IMG/VR virus record: IMGVR_UViG_3300046804_003678
Coordinates: 1 to 56,934 of that record
Direction: 5' to 3' (one strand)
Source: a virus
Length of the DNA stretch: 56,934 nt
Shown: positions 26,757 through 37,562 of the stretch, piece by piece
Numbering within the stretch: the stretch's first letter is position 1
How the letters are laid out: the number at the start of each line of letters is the position of its first letter
Made by a program: the position numbers and the translations under genes
The notes under the pieces: model-generated
The model's input: the letters and a program-made list of their open reading frames with translations, nothing else
Database searches by the model: none
What the model was told of the DNA's origin: nothing

Positions 26757-26764
26757 TATAAATA
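26757..26764 (+). promoter_or_regulatory. late promoter before prohead core gene
   Basis: Perfect TATAAATA in the 45-base gap between the portal gene and the gp67-like gene. Confidence 0.75.
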
Positions 26765-26789: not shown

Positions 26790-27041
26790 ATGAGTGATAT
26801 TGAGAATGTTTTAGCGCACGCATGGAATAAAGATGCAGTAAATTTAGCTCCAGCTTTGGATGCAGTAATGTCATCTAAAGCTGCAGATGCTATTCAGGGA
26901 ATGTATTCGTCTGTTGCAGCATCACTGTTTGGCCAAGAAGTACATAATGAAGAAGTACCTCAAGAACAACAAGAAATACAACAAACAGAAGATTTACCAG
27001 ATCAAACTCACGAGGAACCATCTAATGTCGACTCAGAATAA
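26790..27041 (+). CDS. prohead core protein gp67-like
   Basis: An 83-aa protein with a helical, Ala-rich N-terminus (LAHAWNKDAVNLAPALDAVM, AADAIQGMYSSVAASLFG) and an acidic, Gln/Glu-rich tail. Position directly after the portal, size and composition match T4 gp67, a core protein cut by gp21 during maturation. The ATG at 26790 is chosen because GGAGG lies 5 bases upstream. It overlaps the next gene by 17 bases in another frame. Confidence 0.65.
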   Translation: MSDIENVLAHAWNKDAVNLAPALDAVMSSKAADAIQGMYSSVAASLFGQEVHNEEVPQEQQEIQQTEDLPDQTHEEPSNVDSE

Positions 27042-28623
27042 TATTGACGAAGTAGCAGAACCACTATCAAAAGGTGAGAAGGCTTTCAAGGCTCTTCATG
27101 CAGTAGCTCTTAATAAGAAAATTGTTCCTGGTGTAACAGATCAAGAACACGTTTTCAAGGGTCAAGAAAGAAAGCTAGATCAACCAACTGCTTCTCTTGA
27201 GATCTATAAGTCAGAAGATGAGTCAAAAGAAAACTACGATAAAGGTCTTAAGACGTCTGATGAAAGCGTAGAAGAAGCAACATTGTCAGCTAAGGCTGCT
27301 CGTGCTGGTAAAGATATTGGTGCACCTGGTAAGAACTTTGCTAAGATTGCAAAGGATGCTGCAAAGCGTTATGGTTCAAAAGCAGCAGGTGAAAGAGTTG
27401 CTGGTGCAGTTCTTGCCAAGATGCGTGCTCATGAAGAAGTAGAACAAACAGACGAAGGTTTATCTAAGAATTGGGATAGTGCTCATACAAAAGATAAAGA
27501 CCTACAACATACAAAACCTTCTATGAAAAATTATAGAAGGCCAGGCGAAGAAATGAGGTCAGCTCTCAGTAAAATGGCTGCTGATAAAGTAGGTGAATTT
27601 CTTGCCAAAGGCGGTAAAATTAAAAAAATTAAAGAGGAAGAAGAGTTAGAAGAAAAGACTCTTACTCCTGCAGAGACAAAGAAGCGTGAAGAAGTTGCAA
27701 AAGCAATATCACGTGAAAACCCAGACATGCCTATGGCAAAGAAGATGGCTATTGCAACTGCAACTGCAAAGAAGGTAGCTGAAGATGTTGATTATGATTA
27801 CGAAGGTGAAATGGCAAAAGCTGAACTTCGTGCAGTGTGTGATAAGGCAGAAAAGTTAGCTAACATGCTAACAGATGATCAGCAGCTAGAAGCATGGTTG
27901 CAATCAAAGATTTCTAAGGCAAAAGACTATATTGATGCTGTATATGATTACATGATGTATCGTGAAAAGCCAACTGTTGCAGCACCACAAGCTATGCCAA
28001 CACAATCAGACACAATGGCAGGAACTTATGGTTCCTTCTTAAACCGTATGGGAGAAGAAACAGAAATGTCAGAAGAAACTGTAGACGAAGCAATGGGCAC
28101 TATGGCAAGCATTAAAGCTGGTGCAAAGAAGGGTTATGAGGACTCACGTCGTGCACAGCTAGCAGCAATGGCTCATCCAAAAGATCAAATTACTAAGAAG
28201 GACGTTCTTGTTGCTCGTGGTGTTCTTACACCAGATGGCAAGAAAGTAAAAGAAGAAAATGAATATATTGAATTAAAGAGCAAGGCACTTGCTAATGCTT
28301 TTGAAAAGATGGATTTTATTAGTGGTAAGAACAAGCCAGCTCATACAAATAACCTAGGCTCTTCAAAAACTAAGCAAGGCATTGGTTCTAATTCTAGTGT
28401 TCATAATGCCGATACGCAATCTCACACTAATGTTAAGTCTGGATCTACTCAAACTAAGCAAGGCATTGGTTCTGATTCTAGTGTTCATGATAAGGTAGTT
28501 AATACTAAACCAGCTCCTAGAAGAGGTGATTTGATAGGAGGCAGAAACCAATCACCACAGCCAAGAAGAGGTGATTTGATAGGAGGCCCAAACCGAGCCC
28601 AACCACCAAAGTATACAAAGTAA
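27025..28623 (+). CDS. large repetitive head-associated protein, candidate gp21 substrate
   Basis: A 532-aa Lys/Glu/Ala-rich protein; GAGGA 8 bases upstream fixes the start at 27025. Short conserved-looking helical blocks (ARAGKDIGAPGKNFAKIAKD with AAGERVAGAVLAKMRAHEE; MAKKMAIATATAKKVAEDVD) are separated by acidic linkers such as EEVEQTDEG and EETVDEA. The C-terminus has two DNA-level repeats. It lies between the portal and protease genes, where T4 encodes core and internal proteins. The linkers fit the hydrophobic-x-Glu cleavage rule of T4 prohead protease. Internal or ejected protein is inference; the family was not named with certainty. Confidence 0.7.
   Translation: MSTQNNIDEVAEPLSKGEKAFKALHAVALNKKIVPGVTDQEHVFKGQERKLDQPTASLEIYKSEDESKENYDKGLKTSDESVEEATLSAKAARAGKDIGAPGKNFAKIAKDAAKRYGSKAAGERVAGAVLAKMRAHEEVEQTDEGLSKNWDSAHTKDKDLQHTKPSMKNYRRPGEEMRSALSKMAADKVGEFLAKGGKIKKIKEEEELEEKTLTPAETKKREEVAKAISRENPDMPMAKKMAIATATAKKVAEDVDYDYEGEMAKAELRAVCDKAEKLANMLTDDQQLEAWLQSKISKAKDYIDAVYDYMMYREKPTVAAPQAMPTQSDTMAGTYGSFLNRMGEETEMSEETVDEAMGTMASIKAGAKKGYEDSRRAQLAAMAHPKDQITKKDVLVARGVLTPDGKKVKEENEYIELKSKALANAFEKMDFISGKNKPAHTNNLGSSKTKQGIGSNSSVHNADTQSHTNVKSGSTQTKQGIGSDSSVHDKVVNTKPAPRRGDLIGGRNQSPQPRRGDLIGGPNRAQPPKYTK
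28367..28488 (+). repeat. two 38-bp direct repeats in the large head-associated gene
   Basis: Bases 28367-28404 recur at 28451-28488 with a single mismatch, 84 bases apart and in frame. They encode TKQGIGSNSSVH and TKQGIGSDSSVH. Confidence 0.9.
28519..28587 (+). repeat. two 24-bp direct repeats at the gene's 3' end
   Basis: Bases 28519-28542 recur exactly at 28564-28587, 45 bases apart, encoding RRGDLIGG twice. Each unit contains GATAGGAGG, which resembles a ribosome site, but no start codon follows at a useful distance. Confidence 0.9.
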
Positions 28624-28633
28624 TTGATATATT

Positions 28634-31354
28634 ATGACAGATAATAAGAAGATAGATAACAATAAAGACAAAAAAGGCTCGTTCGATCACGAAGACTTTC
28701 GTCGTCAGATTGTCTATCTTCATAAGCCAGATATCAATAAAAAGCATATAGAAAAGGCATCTCAAGAAATTGAGAAGAAGTTTTCAACACATTTTAACAG
28801 TTCATCAAAAGGTAGATCGGTCAAAACAATGCCAGAAGAAAATAAAGTTAACGTGTTAAACACTGTAATGGAAACTGCAAAGAAACGTATTGATGAAGTT
28901 TCAGCTCAGATGGCTACCCATGCTTCAGTTAAGGCAAAAGAAAAAGCCAACAGAATCGTAAACAAATACAATGATACTATGATTGAACCACACAATAAAA
29001 TTGAAGGTGGTTGGATGGTAAAGCCTGGCAAAGAAAAAGAAGCATCATCTATGATGAATACAGCAGATAAAAAACGTGATCAGGCTAATAAATTTTCATT
29101 GTATGCAAAAATTAAAGCTCGTAAAGAAATGAAAAATGAAGAAGTAGTAGATGAAGGCCTAGGAAAGAACATTATAGCAGGAGTCACGGCTCTTGGTATT
29201 GGTGCAGGTGTTGGTGCTGCTACATCAAAGGCATTTCCAGATAAGCCTGCTACTTATCAAGTAATTGGCAATAATGTTGTTATGAAGAAGAATCCTGGTA
29301 AAATTGTTCATACTGCTAAAAGTAAAGAAGATGCTATGAAGTGGGCTACTACTCAAAAAGAAGAAGTAGAACAGGTAGATGAGATCAGTGCTAAGACTGG
29401 TATGTCATATAGCATCAAGGCAACAAGTCAAGTAGGTAAGGGTAACCTAGACTCATCAAAAGAATCAAAGAGACTGGCTGGAGTAAAAATGGCAGACGAC
29501 AAATATCGTAAGATGCAAGGTAAATCAACTCAAGCTAAGGTAGGGTTTGGTGAAGACAAGGAACACATTGATGAAGGCATGCCTTCTGGTGTAGTTAAAG
29601 ATAAAGCTAGATTAGCACAAATGTCTGACCAAGAATTTGCTGAAAAGTATAAAGATCTATCCGATGACAGATTGAGAGCAAAAGCTCGCATACATGCAAT
29701 TAAAGATCAAGAGCATTACGTAAAGCGTCGTAAAAGAGGCTTATCAGAAGAAGCTGAAAAGAAAAAAATTACTAAGATTAAACTTGGTAAGGAAAAAGAA
29801 GATATTGGCTATAAGGTAGTAGATGTTGGTCCTGGAGGAAAAGAAACAGTTAGGAAACAACATAACTGGAAAGAAGAAGTAGAACAAGTTGATGAAATGG
29901 GTAAAAAAGGTTCATTTCGTCCTGTAAGTCCTGGCGTTCAAAATCTTCGTACTGCACAAGCAGCAACTAGAGGTGATAAAGCTTTAGATAAAGAATATCA
30001 TTATGGTACTACAAAAGGTGGTGTATCTCCTATTGCTAGTAAAAGAAGAGAACAGGGATTTGGCTCTGTAGCAAATTATAATAGTGCACATGCAGCATTG
30101 ACTGCAAAAAAACAAGGTGCTAGTGGAAAAGGTCAAGACGCTGCTATTCACAAAGGTTGGGGAAAGACTGTAGATCAAATGCCTGCTGCAAATCCAGAAA
30201 AACAAGCTGCTAGAAAGAAATTACAACAAACATCATTTAGTTCTCTGTCTAAAGGTGAGCAAGAAAAAGATACTGTGTTGAGAAAAGGTATTACGTCAGA
30301 GGAATTATCAATCTACGAAGGTTGGTATGATACAAAACCAAATTCAGATGGTACTCATACAGTTGTAAAAATTAATAATGATAAAAACCCTTACAACCAC
30401 AAAGTTGGTGACACGGTTTCTAAGGGTGAACACACAACTAGAATGTATCATAGTGATGGTAGTGCATATAGCCAAGTTCAAAAAGAACAATTTGGTTTAG
30501 ATGAAGGTCGTGGTCGTCCTCCTAAGGTTGGTTCAAAAGCATGGCATGCAAAACAAGCTGCAGCAAAATCAGGTGAAGGTGAAGAGCAAGAAGCTGACAA
30601 AAACATTGTCAATCAAATGAGAAAAAAGCCAGTCGGTGATTCTCATACTCTTACATTCAACAATGGTGAAAAGAAGCAAGTTCATGTTCAGCACGTAAAC
30701 AAGGCTCTTTCAATGTTGGCTAATACACCAAAACCTGCGGATAGAGAGAAGCTTCAAAATAGCTTTTCACATTCTCATGATAGATTCATGGCAACTATCA
30801 AGTCTGGTAAGCCAGTAGAAGATGCTGCTCGTCCTAAAGTATCTCTAGGTAAGATGAAAGCAGAATCAGTTGATCCTTCAACTACTCCTGCTGCAAGAGG
30901 ATCTATCACTACTAGAGTAATTAGAAAACCAGATGGATCTTTAGTTCTTACTAAAACTCATGTAGGTAGAAAATTTACACGTGATGTTGTAGATGCTCAG
31001 GAAGCAATCACAATGTATAATCCTGAAAAGGAAGAGAAAGAAGAGAAGAAAGAAAAGCATGAGACTCCAAAAGGACTCAGTGTGGATCTAACTTCTGATA
31101 GCAGAAAAAAGCTAGCTAGTGATCCCCTAGCATCCAAAGAAAAATTTGATATTCCTCCTACTGTTGGAAATAAATCTGCAGGTGGAGAAGATACTACGTA
31201 TGGAATGGGAAAATATTCAGTTGCAGAGGATGAAACCCTAAATAATCTATATGCAGATTTATCAGAAGAAAACAAGCAGATTTTTAATAATTTAATACAA
31301 ACTGAGCAGGGAATTGAAAAACTTCTCCAGTTTGCAGCAAATCAAGGGTACTAA
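28634..31354 (+). CDS. 906-aa repetitive protein, candidate gp21-processed polyprotein
   Basis: A 906-aa, highly charged protein. Blocks of about 50-150 residues are separated by acidic junctions: NEEVVDEGLG, KEEVEQVDEIS, DKEHIDEGM, KEEVEQVDEMG, FGLDEGRG. One block (LGKNIIAGVTALGIGAGVGA) is a short hydrophobic Gly-rich segment. A Ser/Lys-rich block has GRPPKVGSKAWHAKQAAAK, an AT-hook-like DNA-binding motif. The C-terminus (LNNLYADLSEENKQIFNNLI, GIEKLLQFAANQG) looks like a packaged-protein tail. The V-D-E or I-D-E junctions fit gp21 cleavage. It follows the similar 532-aa gene. Function is unknown; internal head protein is inferred. Confidence 0.7.
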   Translation: MTDNKKIDNNKDKKGSFDHEDFRRQIVYLHKPDINKKHIEKASQEIEKKFSTHFNSSSKGRSVKTMPEENKVNVLNTVMETAKKRIDEVSAQMATHASVKAKEKANRIVNKYNDTMIEPHNKIEGGWMVKPGKEKEASSMMNTADKKRDQANKFSLYAKIKARKEMKNEEVVDEGLGKNIIAGVTALGIGAGVGAATSKAFPDKPATYQVIGNNVVMKKNPGKIVHTAKSKEDAMKWATTQKEEVEQVDEISAKTGMSYSIKATSQVGKGNLDSSKESKRLAGVKMADDKYRKMQGKSTQAKVGFGEDKEHIDEGMPSGVVKDKARLAQMSDQEFAEKYKDLSDDRLRAKARIHAIKDQEHYVKRRKRGLSEEAEKKKITKIKLGKEKEDIGYKVVDVGPGGKETVRKQHNWKEEVEQVDEMGKKGSFRPVSPGVQNLRTAQAATRGDKALDKEYHYGTTKGGVSPIASKRREQGFGSVANYNSAHAALTAKKQGASGKGQDAAIHKGWGKTVDQMPAANPEKQAARKKLQQTSFSSLSKGEQEKDTVLRKGITSEELSIYEGWYDTKPNSDGTHTVVKINNDKNPYNHKVGDTVSKGEHTTRMYHSDGSAYSQVQKEQFGLDEGRGRPPKVGSKAWHAKQAAAKSGEGEEQEADKNIVNQMRKKPVGDSHTLTFNNGEKKQVHVQHVNKALSMLANTPKPADREKLQNSFSHSHDRFMATIKSGKPVEDAARPKVSLGKMKAESVDPSTTPAARGSITTRVIRKPDGSLVLTKTHVGRKFTRDVVDAQEAITMYNPEKEEKEEKKEKHETPKGLSVDLTSDSRKKLASDPLASKEKFDIPPTVGNKSAGGEDTTYGMGKYSVAEDETLNNLYADLSEENKQIFNNLIQTEQGIEKLLQFAANQGY

Positions 31355-31357
31355 AAT

Positions 31358-31609
31358 ATGTCTTCAGTATACAAGCTTTTGGGAACAGAATTATCAATAT
31401 CTTCAGCCAATACAGTATCTACTGCTAAGGTTGTTAGAGTAGTTAATGTTACTAATGCTATCACAGTTCTTACTGTTGCATATTCTAATGGTACCTCATA
31501 TGGAAATACAACTATTGCTCCAAATGAAACTTTGATCGTAGAAAAATCACCAACAGATACTGTTGCTGGATCAAATTTAAGAGCATCATCTATTGCTTAT
31601 AGGAACTAA
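31358..31609 (+). CDS. small beta-rich structural protein
   Basis: An 83-aa protein without charge clusters (MSSVYKLLGTELSISSANTV, RVVNVTNAITVLTVAYSNGT, GNTTIAPNETLIVEKSPTDT). The pattern of alternating hydrophobic and polar residues suggests an all-beta fold, like small head-decoration or tail proteins of marine phages. It sits between the large core-like gene and the prohead protease, which favours a head role. Family not identified. Confidence 0.6.
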   Translation: MSSVYKLLGTELSISSANTVSTAKVVRVVNVTNAITVLTVAYSNGTSYGNTTIAPNETLIVEKSPTDTVAGSNLRASSIAYRN

Positions 31610-31613
31610 TTAA

Positions 31614-32291
31614 ATGAAACTTATTACTGAAGTCAATGAAGAGCTAAACTATATTGCAGAAGAAGGCTCAGAAGGCAAAAAGAACCTTTATATCGAAGGT
31701 ATCTTTCTTCAAGGTGGTCTTGTAAATCGTAATGGTAGAATGTATGACCCTGATATTCTAAGTAAAGAAGTAGACCGTTACACTAATGATGCAGTAAACA
31801 ATAATCGTGCTTACGGTGAGTTAGGTCATCCATCAGGTCCTTCTATCAACCTAGAACGTGTATGTATGATGATTAAGTCATTAAAGCGCGAAGGCAATAA
31901 CTTCATTGGTAAAGCTAAGATAATGGAAACACCTTACGGACAGATTGTTAAGAATCTTATGTCAGAAGGCGCTAAGCTTGGCGTATCTTCAAGAGGCATG
32001 GGTTCTCTTAAAGAAGTTAATGGTGTAAATATGGTACAGGATGATTTCTATCTTGCTACAGCAGCAGATATTGTAGCTGATCCTTCCGCTCCTGATGCTT
32101 ATGTAAATGGCGTTATGGAAGGCGTAGAGTGGATCTGGGATAATGGCCTGTTAAAAGCTACACAACCTCAAAAAGCAGAGGAAATTTCTAGAGTTGCTGA
32201 ACAGCATAAGGAAGAAATAAAACAAACTCCAAAAGCAGATCTTGCAGAAGCAAAGATCAGAGTTTTCCAACATTTCCTTTCGAAACTATAA
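31614..32291 (+). CDS. gp21: prohead core protease gp21
   Basis: A 225-aa serine protease of the T4 gp21 (herpesvirus-like assemblin) type. GIFLQGGLVNRNGRMYDPDI starts the domain; His72 in GELGHPSGPSINLERV and Ser125/Ser126 in GVSSRGMGSL are the likely catalytic residues; DDFYLATAADIVADPSAPDA follows. It removes the scaffold and trims head proteins at hydrophobic-x-Glu sites. Many such sites occur in the gp22 scaffold and in the two large proteins upstream. Confidence 0.93.
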   Translation: MKLITEVNEELNYIAEEGSEGKKNLYIEGIFLQGGLVNRNGRMYDPDILSKEVDRYTNDAVNNNRAYGELGHPSGPSINLERVCMMIKSLKREGNNFIGKAKIMETPYGQIVKNLMSEGAKLGVSSRGMGSLKEVNGVNMVQDDFYLATAADIVADPSAPDAYVNGVMEGVEWIWDNGLLKATQPQKAEEISRVAEQHKEEIKQTPKADLAEAKIRVFQHFLSKL

Positions 32292-33466: not shown

Positions 33467-34852
33467 ATGCAAGGTTTTAATGAACAGTTAATTGCAAAGT
33501 GGAAGCCAGTGCTTGAGCACGAAGATCTTCCAAGAATTGCAGACGCTCACAAGCGTTCAGTAATTGCTACACTTCTTGAAAATACCGAACAGGCTATGAT
33601 TCAAGAAAATGCAGCAGCTAAGAATTTTGGAATGCTAGCAGAAGTTGCTACTAACTCAGTCGGTACTGGTGGATATGGTGCAGGCGGTGGTGCAGGTGTT
33701 GCTGGTTATGACCCAATTCTTATCTCACTTATCCGTCGTGCAATGCCTAACCTCGTTGCATACGACATCTGCGGCGTACAGCCAATGACAGGTCCAACAG
33801 GACTTATCTTCGCAATGCGTTCACAGTATGCAAACTCAACAAACAGAGAAGCTTTTGGTTCAAACAATTCAGAAGCATTCTATGATGAAGCAAACACTGC
33901 ATTCTCAACATCACGCGCTGGTACAAACGTGATTGGTGAAAAGAATACAGGTACATCACCAAACTACAGCAATGCACAAGCAAATACTTCACAGTATAAC
34001 TTTGCTGGTGGTATGACTACATCAACTGCAGAAGCACTTGGTGTTGCAGCTGATTCATTCCCAGAAATGGCATTCTCAATTGATAAGGTATCAGTAACTG
34101 CACGTTCACGCGCTCTAAAGGCTGAATACACTATCGAACTCGCACAGGACCTTAAGGCAGTCCATGGTCTTGATGCAGAGACTGAACTTGCTAACATCCT
34201 TCAGTCTGAAATCCTTGCTGAAATCAACCGCGAAGTAATTCGTACAATCAATGTTTCAGCTCGTCAGGGTGCTCAAGAAGGTACAACTGTTGCAGGTATC
34301 TTTGATCTTGATACAGATTCAAACGGCCGTTGGTCAGTAGAAAAGTTCAAGGGTCTTATGTTCCAGCTTGAAAGAGAAGCTAATAAGATTGCTAAGGACA
34401 CACGTCGTGGTAAGGGTAACATTGTTATCTGTTCTTCAGACGTAGCTTCTGCACTTCAGATGGCAGGCGTACTTGATTATACTCCAGCTCTTGCATCAAA
34501 CAACCTTCAGGTTGATGATACAGGTAACACATTCGCTGGTGTTCTAAACGGACGCTTCAGAGTGTATGTAGATCCATATACAACTGCAAACTATCTAACA
34601 GTTGGCTATAAGGGTTCAAATGCATTCGATGCTGGTATCTTCTACTGCCCATACGTACCACTTCAGATGGTTCGTGCAGTTGGCCAAGATACATTCCAGC
34701 CAAAGATTGGATTCAAGACTCGTTATGGAATGGTTGCTAACCCATTTGCTCAATCACAGCAGGGTTCACCAAATCTTCAGACAAGTACTTCAGATCCTTC
34801 ATATAACACAAACTCATACTATCGTAGAGTTATTGTTAACAACATCATGTAA
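33467..34852 (+). CDS. gp23: major capsid protein gp23
   Basis: A 461-aa capsid protein. WKPVLEHEDLPRIADAHKRS is the conserved N-terminal region containing the likely maturation segment; YDPILISLIRRAMPNLVAYD, GVQPMTGPTGLIFAMRSQY, ARSRALKAEYTIELAQDLKA and IGFKTRYGMVANPFAQ are diagnostic gp23 blocks. Codon use is slightly more GC-rich and uniform than in the surrounding genes, as expected for a very highly expressed gene. A hairpin and a strong terminator follow. Confidence 0.97.
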   Translation: MQGFNEQLIAKWKPVLEHEDLPRIADAHKRSVIATLLENTEQAMIQENAAAKNFGMLAEVATNSVGTGGYGAGGGAGVAGYDPILISLIRRAMPNLVAYDICGVQPMTGPTGLIFAMRSQYANSTNREAFGSNNSEAFYDEANTAFSTSRAGTNVIGEKNTGTSPNYSNAQANTSQYNFAGGMTTSTAEALGVAADSFPEMAFSIDKVSVTARSRALKAEYTIELAQDLKAVHGLDAETELANILQSEILAEINREVIRTINVSARQGAQEGTTVAGIFDLDTDSNGRWSVEKFKGLMFQLEREANKIAKDTRRGKGNIVICSSDVASALQMAGVLDYTPALASNNLQVDDTGNTFAGVLNGRFRVYVDPYTTANYLTVGYKGSNAFDAGIFYCPYVPLQMVRAVGQDTFQPKIGFKTRYGMVANPFAQSQQGSPNLQTSTSDPSYNTNSYYRRVIVNNIM

Positions 34853-34949: not shown

Positions 34950-37562
34950 ATGCTTTTTTTGTTCTCAGATTACATATATCAAGGTTATAATACTACCCTA
35001 TCAGAAGAGCTATCTGATAGCCAAAAAAAATTGGTAGATAGTTGGGGTAAGGGAAAAGCCGAGGAAATATCATCAGAAGTATTTCCTAAGGGACAAGATA
35101 GAATATCAATTCCTCTCGAACAAAAAGGCAATAAAGAAGAGGAAGAAATTAAACCTCATCCGGATGTAGAAAAACATCTTAGAGATAATGGGTTTGAAAT
35201 AGCAGATTACAAAGGTGGTTATGCTAAAGATAAGCACGGTAGAACTGTATCTATCGGCAAAGCATTAAACAAGACAAATGCACCACTACCAGTAAAACAA
35301 GCATTCGAAAATGATCCTGTAAGAAAAGGATCTACCCAGGCTAAAAAAGGTCTAAAAGTAATCATATCTAGACACCCACATGATGTAGCTGGTATGTCTA
35401 CTGATCAAGGTTGGACATCTTGTATGACTATGAAAAATCCTGAGACTGGTGAAGGTGGTGGATGTAATCAACATTATTTACAACAGGATGTTAAGCACGG
35501 CACCCATGTTGCCTATCTTGTTCATGATGATGACAATGAACTTAAACGTCCTATTGCAAGAATTGCATTAAAACCTTTTACTTCTGATGATGGTAAACAT
35601 ACTGTATTGAGACCAGAATCAAGAGCATATGGTACTGGTGATTCTTCATTTGCTCGTACTGTTAACAACTGGGTAGAGAAAAATTTTCCAGCAAAGCCTA
35701 AAATATTATATAGAAAGAATCAAAATCTTTATCATGATAGTGGAGTAAGGGCATTTGGAGGTGATAAGGATGCATTCTTGGCTAGTAATGATCCTAAAGT
35801 TAGAGCTTCTGCATTTACTAAAGTTGGTTTAGGTATTGATCACGAAGATATTAGTAGAGGTTTGAATGATGAGGATGATAAGGTAAGAACAGCAGCCATT
35901 AAACACAGAGAAGCAACAGCTGATCATATATCAACAGCTTTAATGGATCAAAGTAAAAAGGTTAGAGCTGCTGCTTTAGCTAATCCTAATGCTACTGAAG
36001 ATCATCTTATGCAGGGATTAAAAAGTAAAGACATTAATGTAAAAAAGGCAGTGTTAAAAAATCGTAATGCTTCTGAAAAAGTATTGAGTGCAGCGGTAGA
36101 AGATCCTAAACTTGCTACTTTAGAGCAAGGCTATAAACAAGAAGGTGTATTTGATCATCCAAATACTACCGAGAAAGTTATACAAAAAGGTTTAGATAGT
36201 AAGAATAAAGAAACAAGAGCAGCTGCTATCAAATCTGGCTATCTATCTGATAAGCAGATAAATGATCTTATGGATGATAATGAATATATTGAAAAAAGAT
36301 TTAGTGTTGTAGATGGTAATAAAATAGTTCATCCTGCTGCTGCAGCTATAGAAGCTGCTCGTTTGGTACGCGCAGGTTTAAATCATTCTATTTTTAAAAA
36401 TAATGGTGATAAAGAATATCTTAACGATGAATTAACTGAAAAGGCATTAAATCATCCAGATCATACTGTTAGACTTGCAATGCTAAGAAGTCTTGATGAT
36501 AGACATCCAAAATATAATGAACGTGTAAGTAAATTATTAGATGATAAAGATGACAGGGTAGTGGAAGAAGCAGCAAAAGCTATTGCTCATGGTAGAAGTA
36601 AAATGTTAAATAAGGAAATGGCAGATAAATTACTGAACCATCCTAGTCCTGATGTTCAACAATATGTACAATTTATCAATAGAAGTAATACATTTAAAAA
36701 TTTAGGATATGATCCAGATAAAATAACTGATGAAGGCTTAAAGAATTCATCTCCAAAAGTCAGAGAAGCAGCAGCTAGAAGTGATAATTTAACTAAAGAA
36801 CATGTAGATAAAATAGTTAATGATAAAGATAATAATGTAATAAAAGCTTTACAGTGGGCAGATAGGTATAGAGGAGATGAATATTATACAGATACATTTA
36901 AACAATCTGGAATAAATATATTAAAAAAACCATTACTTACTAAGGAACATCTAACAAAACTAGCCGGTCATTCTGATCCTGAAATAGTATCTGAAGCATT
37001 AAAACACAAAAACTCAGGAAGCGAAGCTATTGATGCTGCTTTAAATAATCAAAATCCAGATGTAGTAGAAGATACTTACAGAAGAATAAAATATGGTATA
37101 CTTCATCATAAAAAATTAAATAGTAATCATATAGATAAAATATTATCAAGATCTGATACAGATATTGATACATTACAAACTTTAGGACGTAATGACAAAT
37201 TAAACCAAGATCATATAGATAGATTAATGAATAGTTCTGATATATCTGTAAGAAGATTGGCTGCTGCTCATTCAAAACTATCATCTCAGCAGATTTATGC
37301 TGCTCAAAGAGATAAAGACCCAGATGTTAGATATTATGCGCTAACAAATAAAAATGTTAAACCTGAACATATCAATGCTGCTATAAGAGATAATCCTAAT
37401 GATGAAAATCTCAAAAAAATAAAGAACTATATAGGAAGCGACGAGGATAAACAAGCTCAAGCTGATGATTTTACTACTTCTGGATACCATAAGGGAATAA
37501 ACAGTAGTAGAGCTAAATGGGTAAGAACTAAATTAATGGGTAAAAGAGATTATGAATGGTAA
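34950..37562 (+). CDS. HEAT-like repeat protein, 870 aa
   Basis: Residues ~45-270 form a globular domain (LRDNGFEIADYKGGYAKDK, ISRHPHDVAGMSTDQGWTSC, GTHVAYLVHDDDNELKRPIA, ARIALKPFTSDDG, SRAYGTGDSSFARTVNNWVE). Residues ~280-830 are about 20 helical repeats of 20-25 residues of HEAT or leucine-rich-variant type (DPKVRASAFTKVGLGIDHED, DKVRTAAIKHREATADHIST). Such solenoids bind proteins or peptides. GAGGA lies 6 bases upstream. It has its own late box and a terminator, so it is a monocistronic late gene and may be a virion or ejected protein. No known function is recognised. Confidence 0.75.
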   Translation: MLFLFSDYIYQGYNTTLSEELSDSQKKLVDSWGKGKAEEISSEVFPKGQDRISIPLEQKGNKEEEEIKPHPDVEKHLRDNGFEIADYKGGYAKDKHGRTVSIGKALNKTNAPLPVKQAFENDPVRKGSTQAKKGLKVIISRHPHDVAGMSTDQGWTSCMTMKNPETGEGGGCNQHYLQQDVKHGTHVAYLVHDDDNELKRPIARIALKPFTSDDGKHTVLRPESRAYGTGDSSFARTVNNWVEKNFPAKPKILYRKNQNLYHDSGVRAFGGDKDAFLASNDPKVRASAFTKVGLGIDHEDISRGLNDEDDKVRTAAIKHREATADHISTALMDQSKKVRAAALANPNATEDHLMQGLKSKDINVKKAVLKNRNASEKVLSAAVEDPKLATLEQGYKQEGVFDHPNTTEKVIQKGLDSKNKETRAAAIKSGYLSDKQINDLMDDNEYIEKRFSVVDGNKIVHPAAAAIEAARLVRAGLNHSIFKNNGDKEYLNDELTEKALNHPDHTVRLAMLRSLDDRHPKYNERVSKLLDDKDDRVVEEAAKAIAHGRSKMLNKEMADKLLNHPSPDVQQYVQFINRSNTFKNLGYDPDKITDEGLKNSSPKVREAAARSDNLTKEHVDKIVNDKDNNVIKALQWADRYRGDEYYTDTFKQSGINILKKPLLTKEHLTKLAGHSDPEIVSEALKHKNSGSEAIDAALNNQNPDVVEDTYRRIKYGILHHKKLNSNHIDKILSRSDTDIDTLQTLGRNDKLNQDHIDRLMNSSDISVRRLAAAHSKLSSQQIYAAQRDKDPDVRYYALTNKNVKPEHINAAIRDNPNDENLKKIKNYIGSDEDKQAQADDFTTSGYHKGINSSRAKWVRTKLMGKRDYEW

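Follow-up and report, generated by a model that had tools for sequence, protein, structure and literature searches.

Genes between the portal and prohead protease genes

The window (the whole 56,934-base stretch that was analysed) is a virus record of T4-like type, with Pfam and PHROGs matches to the T4-type terminase, tube, portal, prohead protease, scaffold and major capsid families. Its portal-to-protease interval holds an 83-aa ORF at the gp67 position, two large proteins (A and B) and a second 83-aa ORF, all on the + strand:

26757..26764, +, TATAAATA, a T4-type late-promoter-like box 5' of the gp67-position ORF, A and B
26790..27041, +, 83-aa ORF at the gp67 position, acidic at its C-terminus, preceding A
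27025..28623, +, protein A, 532 aa, N-terminal section of a block array
28634..31354, +, protein B, 906 aa, C-terminal section of that array
31358..31609, +, 83-aa ORF in the B-to-gp21 interval (phrog_19805, E=1.9e-9, a family without known function)
31614..32291, +, gp21-type prohead protease, Peptidase_S77 (PF03420, E=1.5e-38; phrog_207, E=5e-80)

The gp67-position ORF matched phrog_1064 'prohead' weakly (E=0.017) and gave no BLASTP alignment with T4 gp67. A and B fill the gp68 slot, from the gp67-position ORF to gp21, apart from the extra 83-aa ORF before gp21. A sequence-only reading of this DNA had placed them directly upstream of the protease gene; that ORF separates B from gp21.

Six TATAAATA boxes were found in the window (at 399, 13083, 22466, 26757, 32296 and 33427), all on the + strand and mostly 25-45 bases 5' of an ATG, as expected of T4 late promoters. 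Their number was not above chance (6 vs 8.9), and only strand and placement are notable. An 870-aa HEAT-repeat protein (34950-37562; PF02985, E=1e-16) lies immediately 3' of gp23.

Pfam and PHROGs searches with A and B returned nothing significant. Against phage records, tblastn of B gave no match and tblastn of A recovered the core block only, from four records (S-WAM2 and S-H9-1). Searches of an open-access literature library turned up no account of a comparable array in a T4-like phage.

Motifs and joints of proteins A and B

A and B are K-rich block proteins in which V/I/L-D-E motifs sit at the block edges. The sequence-only reading had noted V-D-E/I-D-E motifs recurring there in both proteins; the places were correct and the numbers exceeded composition-preserving shuffles, with [VIT]DE occurring 5 times in B vs 0.74 expected (p=0.0004) and 3 times in A vs 0.48 expected (p=0.011). 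The motif is denser in B, where we found IDE (residues 86-88), EEVVDE↓G (169-174), EEVEQVDE (243-250 and 414-421), EHIDE↓G (310-314) and GLDE↓GRGRPPK (621-630); the arrow marks the joint. A is weaker, with the forms VEE, TDE, LEE, VAE and VDE, and carries IDE (7-9), EEVEQTDE↓G (137-144) and EETVDE↓A (350-355). Across all ORFs of the window, 7 of the 13 matches to the joint-like string E[EDQ]x(1-5)[ILV][DEN]E fall in A and B, and the other six lie one each in six other ORFs. The candidate joints and the blocks they border are:

27025..27051, +, capsid-targeting-like N-terminus of A, MSTQNNIDE↓V (by alignment with relatives and T4 IPIII)
27268..27276, +, joint VEE↓A, 5' of the SAKAARAGKDIG block of A (relatives have VDE, VEE, IEE, IRE)
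27448..27456, +, joint TDE↓G, 5' of the NWDSAH block of A (P3 is Thr, a doubtful site)
27646..27654, +, joint LEE↓K, 5' of the TLTPAE block of A ([ILVM]xE in 16/16 entries)
27775..27783, +, joint VAE↓D, 5' of the core helical-hairpin block of A
27784..28029, +, core block of A, a predicted helical hairpin (alignment and AlphaFold model)
28081..28089, +, joint VDE↓A of A
28889..28897, +, joint IDE↓V of B; no relatives were found for this block
29147..29155, +, joint VDE↓G, 5' of the glycine-rich block of B (relatives have VDE, VEE or LEE, then G)
29375..29383, +, joint EEVEQVDE↓I of B
29567..29575, +, joint EHIDE↓G of B
29888..29896, +, joint EEVEQVDE↓M of B
30497..30505, +, joint LDE↓G, 5' of the AT-hook block of B ([LI]xE↓[AG] in 17/17)
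30506..31003, +, AT-hook-like (RGRPPK) block of B with a predicted folded domain (alignment and AlphaFold)
31220..31228, +, VAE, 5' of the conserved block at the end of B
31229..31351, +, conserved acidic C-terminal block of B, LNNLYxxLSEENK

Predicted block structures

The AlphaFold model of the core block showed two helices, with pLDDT above 90 over residues 11-60. In the AT-hook block, pLDDT was 87-97 over residues 31-100, after a low-confidence N-terminal stretch. These predictions agree with an array of folded units linked through flexible junctions. Neither block gave a significant hit when searched against the PDB by sequence or by fold (no PDB fold match for the AT-hook block at E<=0.001), and in BFVD the searched blocks matched phage proteins that are uncharacterised or labelled 'EF-hand'. 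Only the RGRPPK motif hints that the GRPPK piece may bind DNA. Stand-alone ORFs of the SAK or core block types, 129-230 aa long, are present in huge-phage records (L116:3860-4399, L117:3455-4147 and L118:3848-4237).

Related loci and exchange of blocks

About 100 related viral loci were collected, 80 by a scan with the protease and more from two block scans. Among these the blocks were reordered, gained and lost, and the same blocks appeared in different orders and in either the A or the B gene. Comparison of L093 with L087 and L092 showed that one block (NWDSAH) is missing in L093, exactly from joint to joint. The check set beforehand, that alignment with relatives should find the junctions conserved while the blocks vary, was borne out. 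In four loci (L018, L021, L025 and L037) one protein carries both an A-type N-terminus and a B-type C-terminus, and A and B of the window are therefore best seen as one split array, a putative split polyprotein.

Proteins in this position could be purely scaffolding core proteins, as T4 gp67 and gp68 are, with peptides that mostly exit before DNA packaging and have no cargo role. A and B do occupy the T4 slot 20-67-68-21, and T4 core proteins are cut to multiple fragments of which most exit (PMC9026906). However, the slot protein ranged from 166 to 970 aa in most loci with a readable interval, and Mosig had nothing but small ORFs in the slot. Homology to T4 gp68 was also not detectable (the best BLASTP alignment covered 22 residues at E=1.2), the blocks are predicted to be folded and are mostly basic, and they recur stand-alone in other phages and in a cyanophage virion protein. 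We regard a purely scaffolding role as unlikely.

Junction consensus and protease specificity

The commonest junction form in the relatives was I/L-D-E (IDE 40 vs 6.6 expected, LDE 36 vs 9.5), with VDE found 18 times; the X-Y-Glu triplets furthest above the shuffle include IDE, LDE, LNE and LSE. At orthologous joints V, I and L replace one another. At the joint of the TLT block P3 was [ILVM] and P1 was E in 16/16 entries, one of them a doubtful alignment, with D, G, E or N at P2, and most positions further 5' varied while P3 and P1 held. At the AT-hook joint [LI]xE↓[AG] was present in 17/17 distinct sequences (P2 was A, D, E or L), and the blocks upstream of it were largely unrelated among the 17. 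The N-terminal site of the A family showed a hydrophobic P3 and Glu at P1 in 16/17. The core-block joint was the least regular examined, with V or M at P3 in 12/17 and E at P1 in 11/17.

Hydrophobic-x-Glu is a short, common motif. For 72% of the 223 distinct block starts an [ILVM]xE lay within -8..+3, as against 18% for random positions (500 draws, maximum 26%). This statistic may be flattered for the seeds, whose boundaries were set by eye at candidate sites; this bias cannot inflate the residues found in relatives. The ends of gapped BLAST alignments were only weakly enriched at [ILV]DE (0.16 vs 0.10) because the alignments run through low-complexity stretches, and block profiles were used instead.

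As a yardstick for protease specificity we took the predicted gp23 maturation site, aligned to the known T4 cleavage position:

33635..33643, +, predicted gp23 maturation site LAE↓V

Among 52 distinct gp23 sequences of the same phages, P3 was L in 46/52 and P1 was E in 49/52, with P2 free and V at P3 in 0/52. PMC9026906 gives the specificity of T4 gp21 as L/I-x-E. Joints of this I/L-x-E type were also the most frequent in the related loci, and the hydrophobic-x-Glu rule assumed in the sequence-only reading is too loose. Within the window, L or I at P3 together with E at P1 (the gp21 type) is seen at the N-terminal site and at the joints of the TLT and AT-hook blocks, and it is widespread in relatives; many of the window's own joints carry V or T in the P3 position instead. 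V-D-E is a weaker variant of the junction, and T-D-E does not fit the gp21 type; some of the joints with V or T may be cut poorly or not at all, since T4 gp21 is of L/I-x-E type and V was absent from the 52 gp23 sites. Taken together, the comparisons support junctions that behave like prohead-protease sites, with a hydrophobic P3 and Glu at P1 held and P2 free. The earlier proposal of a gp21-processed polyprotein keeps its ground on these protease-site-like junctions and on the T4-type targeting sequence of the relatives (below), and loses its emphasis on V-D-E.

The junctions might also serve another purpose. If A and B remained intact, the acidic EEVEQ(V/I)DE segments would be flexible linkers of multidomain internal proteins. 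Acidic residues are indeed common 5' of P3 (for 70-78% of [ILV]DE, an EE lies no more than 9 residues away), V and T stand at P3, and cleavage at the joints is inferred. Against this, P3 and P1 were kept at orthologous joints even where the acidic stretch is absent (ILGE, IIGE, LVGE), and the same motif ends the relatives' targeting sequence. Intact linker proteins are, in our judgement, quite improbable.

Recurrence of the junction could in addition be a DNA-level effect, with repeated sequence acting as a recombination point between blocks, as the shuffling of blocks and the repetition of the junction within one gene might suggest. Paired junctions within one protein shared 63% of codons at same-residue positions. 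Codon usage predicts the same 63%, so that the junction DNA shows no extra likeness, and the motif is therefore kept at the protein level. P2 and the flanks moreover vary while P3 and P1 hold, which leaves a DNA-level origin very hard to credit.

N-terminal capsid-targeting-like sequence

The N-termini of A relatives (MKTYKTLIRE↓V, MKSFKDYIQE↓V, MKKFKNLISE↓I, MKTLKDFLNE↓R and MKTFKNSIDE↓V) are in register with MKTYQEFIAE↓A of T4 IPII/IPIII (T4 record). In IPIII the first 10 residues suffice for targeting; among them, residues 4 and 7 act in targeting and residues 8 and 10 in processing (PMC9026906). The register MKTxxxx(I/L)xE was present in A relatives L016, L021, L025/L027, L044 and L103; in its strict 10-residue form it fitted only 5 of the 35 N-termini of the A family, and the remainder were shifted or diverged. 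In the window, A starts with MSTQNNIDE, which lacks one residue by comparison and in which most of the targeting consensus is gone, with the I-x-E end kept. B showed no clear N-terminal targeting sequence. The site that ends the relatives' targeting sequence has the same motif as the internal joints.

Related proteins in cyanophage virions

We compared N-termini with the published virion proteome of S-CREM2 (PMC10665884); the proteome papers give peptide counts, not cleavage termini. The strict targeting register was present in 4 of the 27 non-classical virion ORFs detected by MS and in 2 of the 168 ORFs that were not detected (p=0.004). A looser pattern was chosen after viewing the S-CREM2 sequences and is therefore post hoc, so that only the earlier strict pattern counts as evidence. 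S-CREM2 gp160, which is in virions (PMC10665884), carries blocks of the CWP and CYH types with LEE↓ and ISE↓ in front of them, and these two types are common to P-TIM68 and S-SM2. The published cyanophage proteomes support presence in virions for related proteins.

Targeting-like N-termini were also seen on S-CREM2 virion enzymes (L114, L119, L120 and L121), namely a SAM hydrolase (MKDFDSFLEE), a cytidylyltransferase (MKNFSSFLTE), a kinase (..RFDAFLTE) and a Cas9-like nuclease (..RFASFMAE), the looser pattern being post hoc. Such N-termini are a possible reason for these enzymes being in virions. The cytidylyltransferase of S-SZBM1 (L113:3390-4478), reported in virions, begins MRFRQFIIE↓A. S-SZBM1_139, which adjoins the virion cytidylyltransferase gene, was detected in virions (PMC9146016).

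Proposed packaging and processing

We consider it likely, from the sequence comparisons, that A and B form a packaged modular prohead-core polyprotein, targeted to the head, with prohead-protease junctions, and probably cut into small folded blocks. Such an arrangement would probably allow one head to be filled with many small proteins together. A and B would be produced together with the head genes. The array would enter the prohead core via the T4-type capsid-targeting sequence at the A N-terminus, and the conserved block that ends B may assist in this. As the head matures, the gp21-type protease would cut after hydrophobic-x-Glu junctions and release some 10-17 pieces, mostly of 40-240 aa, most of them basic and one AT-hook-like; for this phage, we infer such cleavage of A and B from its relatives. 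The junctions would permit blocks to be gained, lost or reordered without loss of packaging or release.

More tentatively, and with the balance leaning against it, the array may be a cargo array of aquatic T4-like phages, in which many different small proteins enter one head on a single targeting sequence, are separated by the protease, are delivered into the host and are exchanged between phages as cassettes with cutting sites at their borders.

If the proposed processing is true, a T4-like head-maturation protease doubles as a polyprotein processor, and block-by-block exchange of internal proteins between phages would be accounted for. A sequence rule, a targeting sequence plus hydrophobic-x-Glu joints, would then predict head-borne proteins among those without known function in aquatic phages, and would offer a reason for the cytidylyltransferase, SAM hydrolase, kinase and Cas9-like nuclease in S-CREM2 virions.

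Comparison with known systems

T4 IPI, IPII, IPIII and Alt likewise have an N-terminal targeting sequence of about 10 residues ending I/L-x-E, as found in A relatives; the pieces are mostly basic in both cases, and the protease belongs to the same family. In contrast, they are separate gene products, each with its own targeting sequence, whereas A and B place many blocks in one array with internal candidate sites; no homology of the blocks to IPII or IPIII was seen. T4 gp67, gp68 and gp22 share the slot 20-67-68-21, and the T4 core proteins are fragmented by gp21 (PMC9026906), but A and B are far larger (532 + 906 aa), modular and variable in block order.

SPN3US head proteins parallel the processing proposed for the array: one precursor receives several x-x-Glu cuts by gp245 within the head (PMC10052503). 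There the multiple cuts remove a long propeptide, whereas cuts in A and B would separate folded blocks. The virion protein gp160 of S-CREM2, AIR93496.1 of P-TIM68 and S-SM2_109 share core, CWP, CYH, GPG and DUF6321-like block types and hydrophobic-x-Glu junctions; they differ in lying near cytidylyltransferase or terminase genes and in having other block sets. The array is best read as a variant of the known T4 internal and core proteins.
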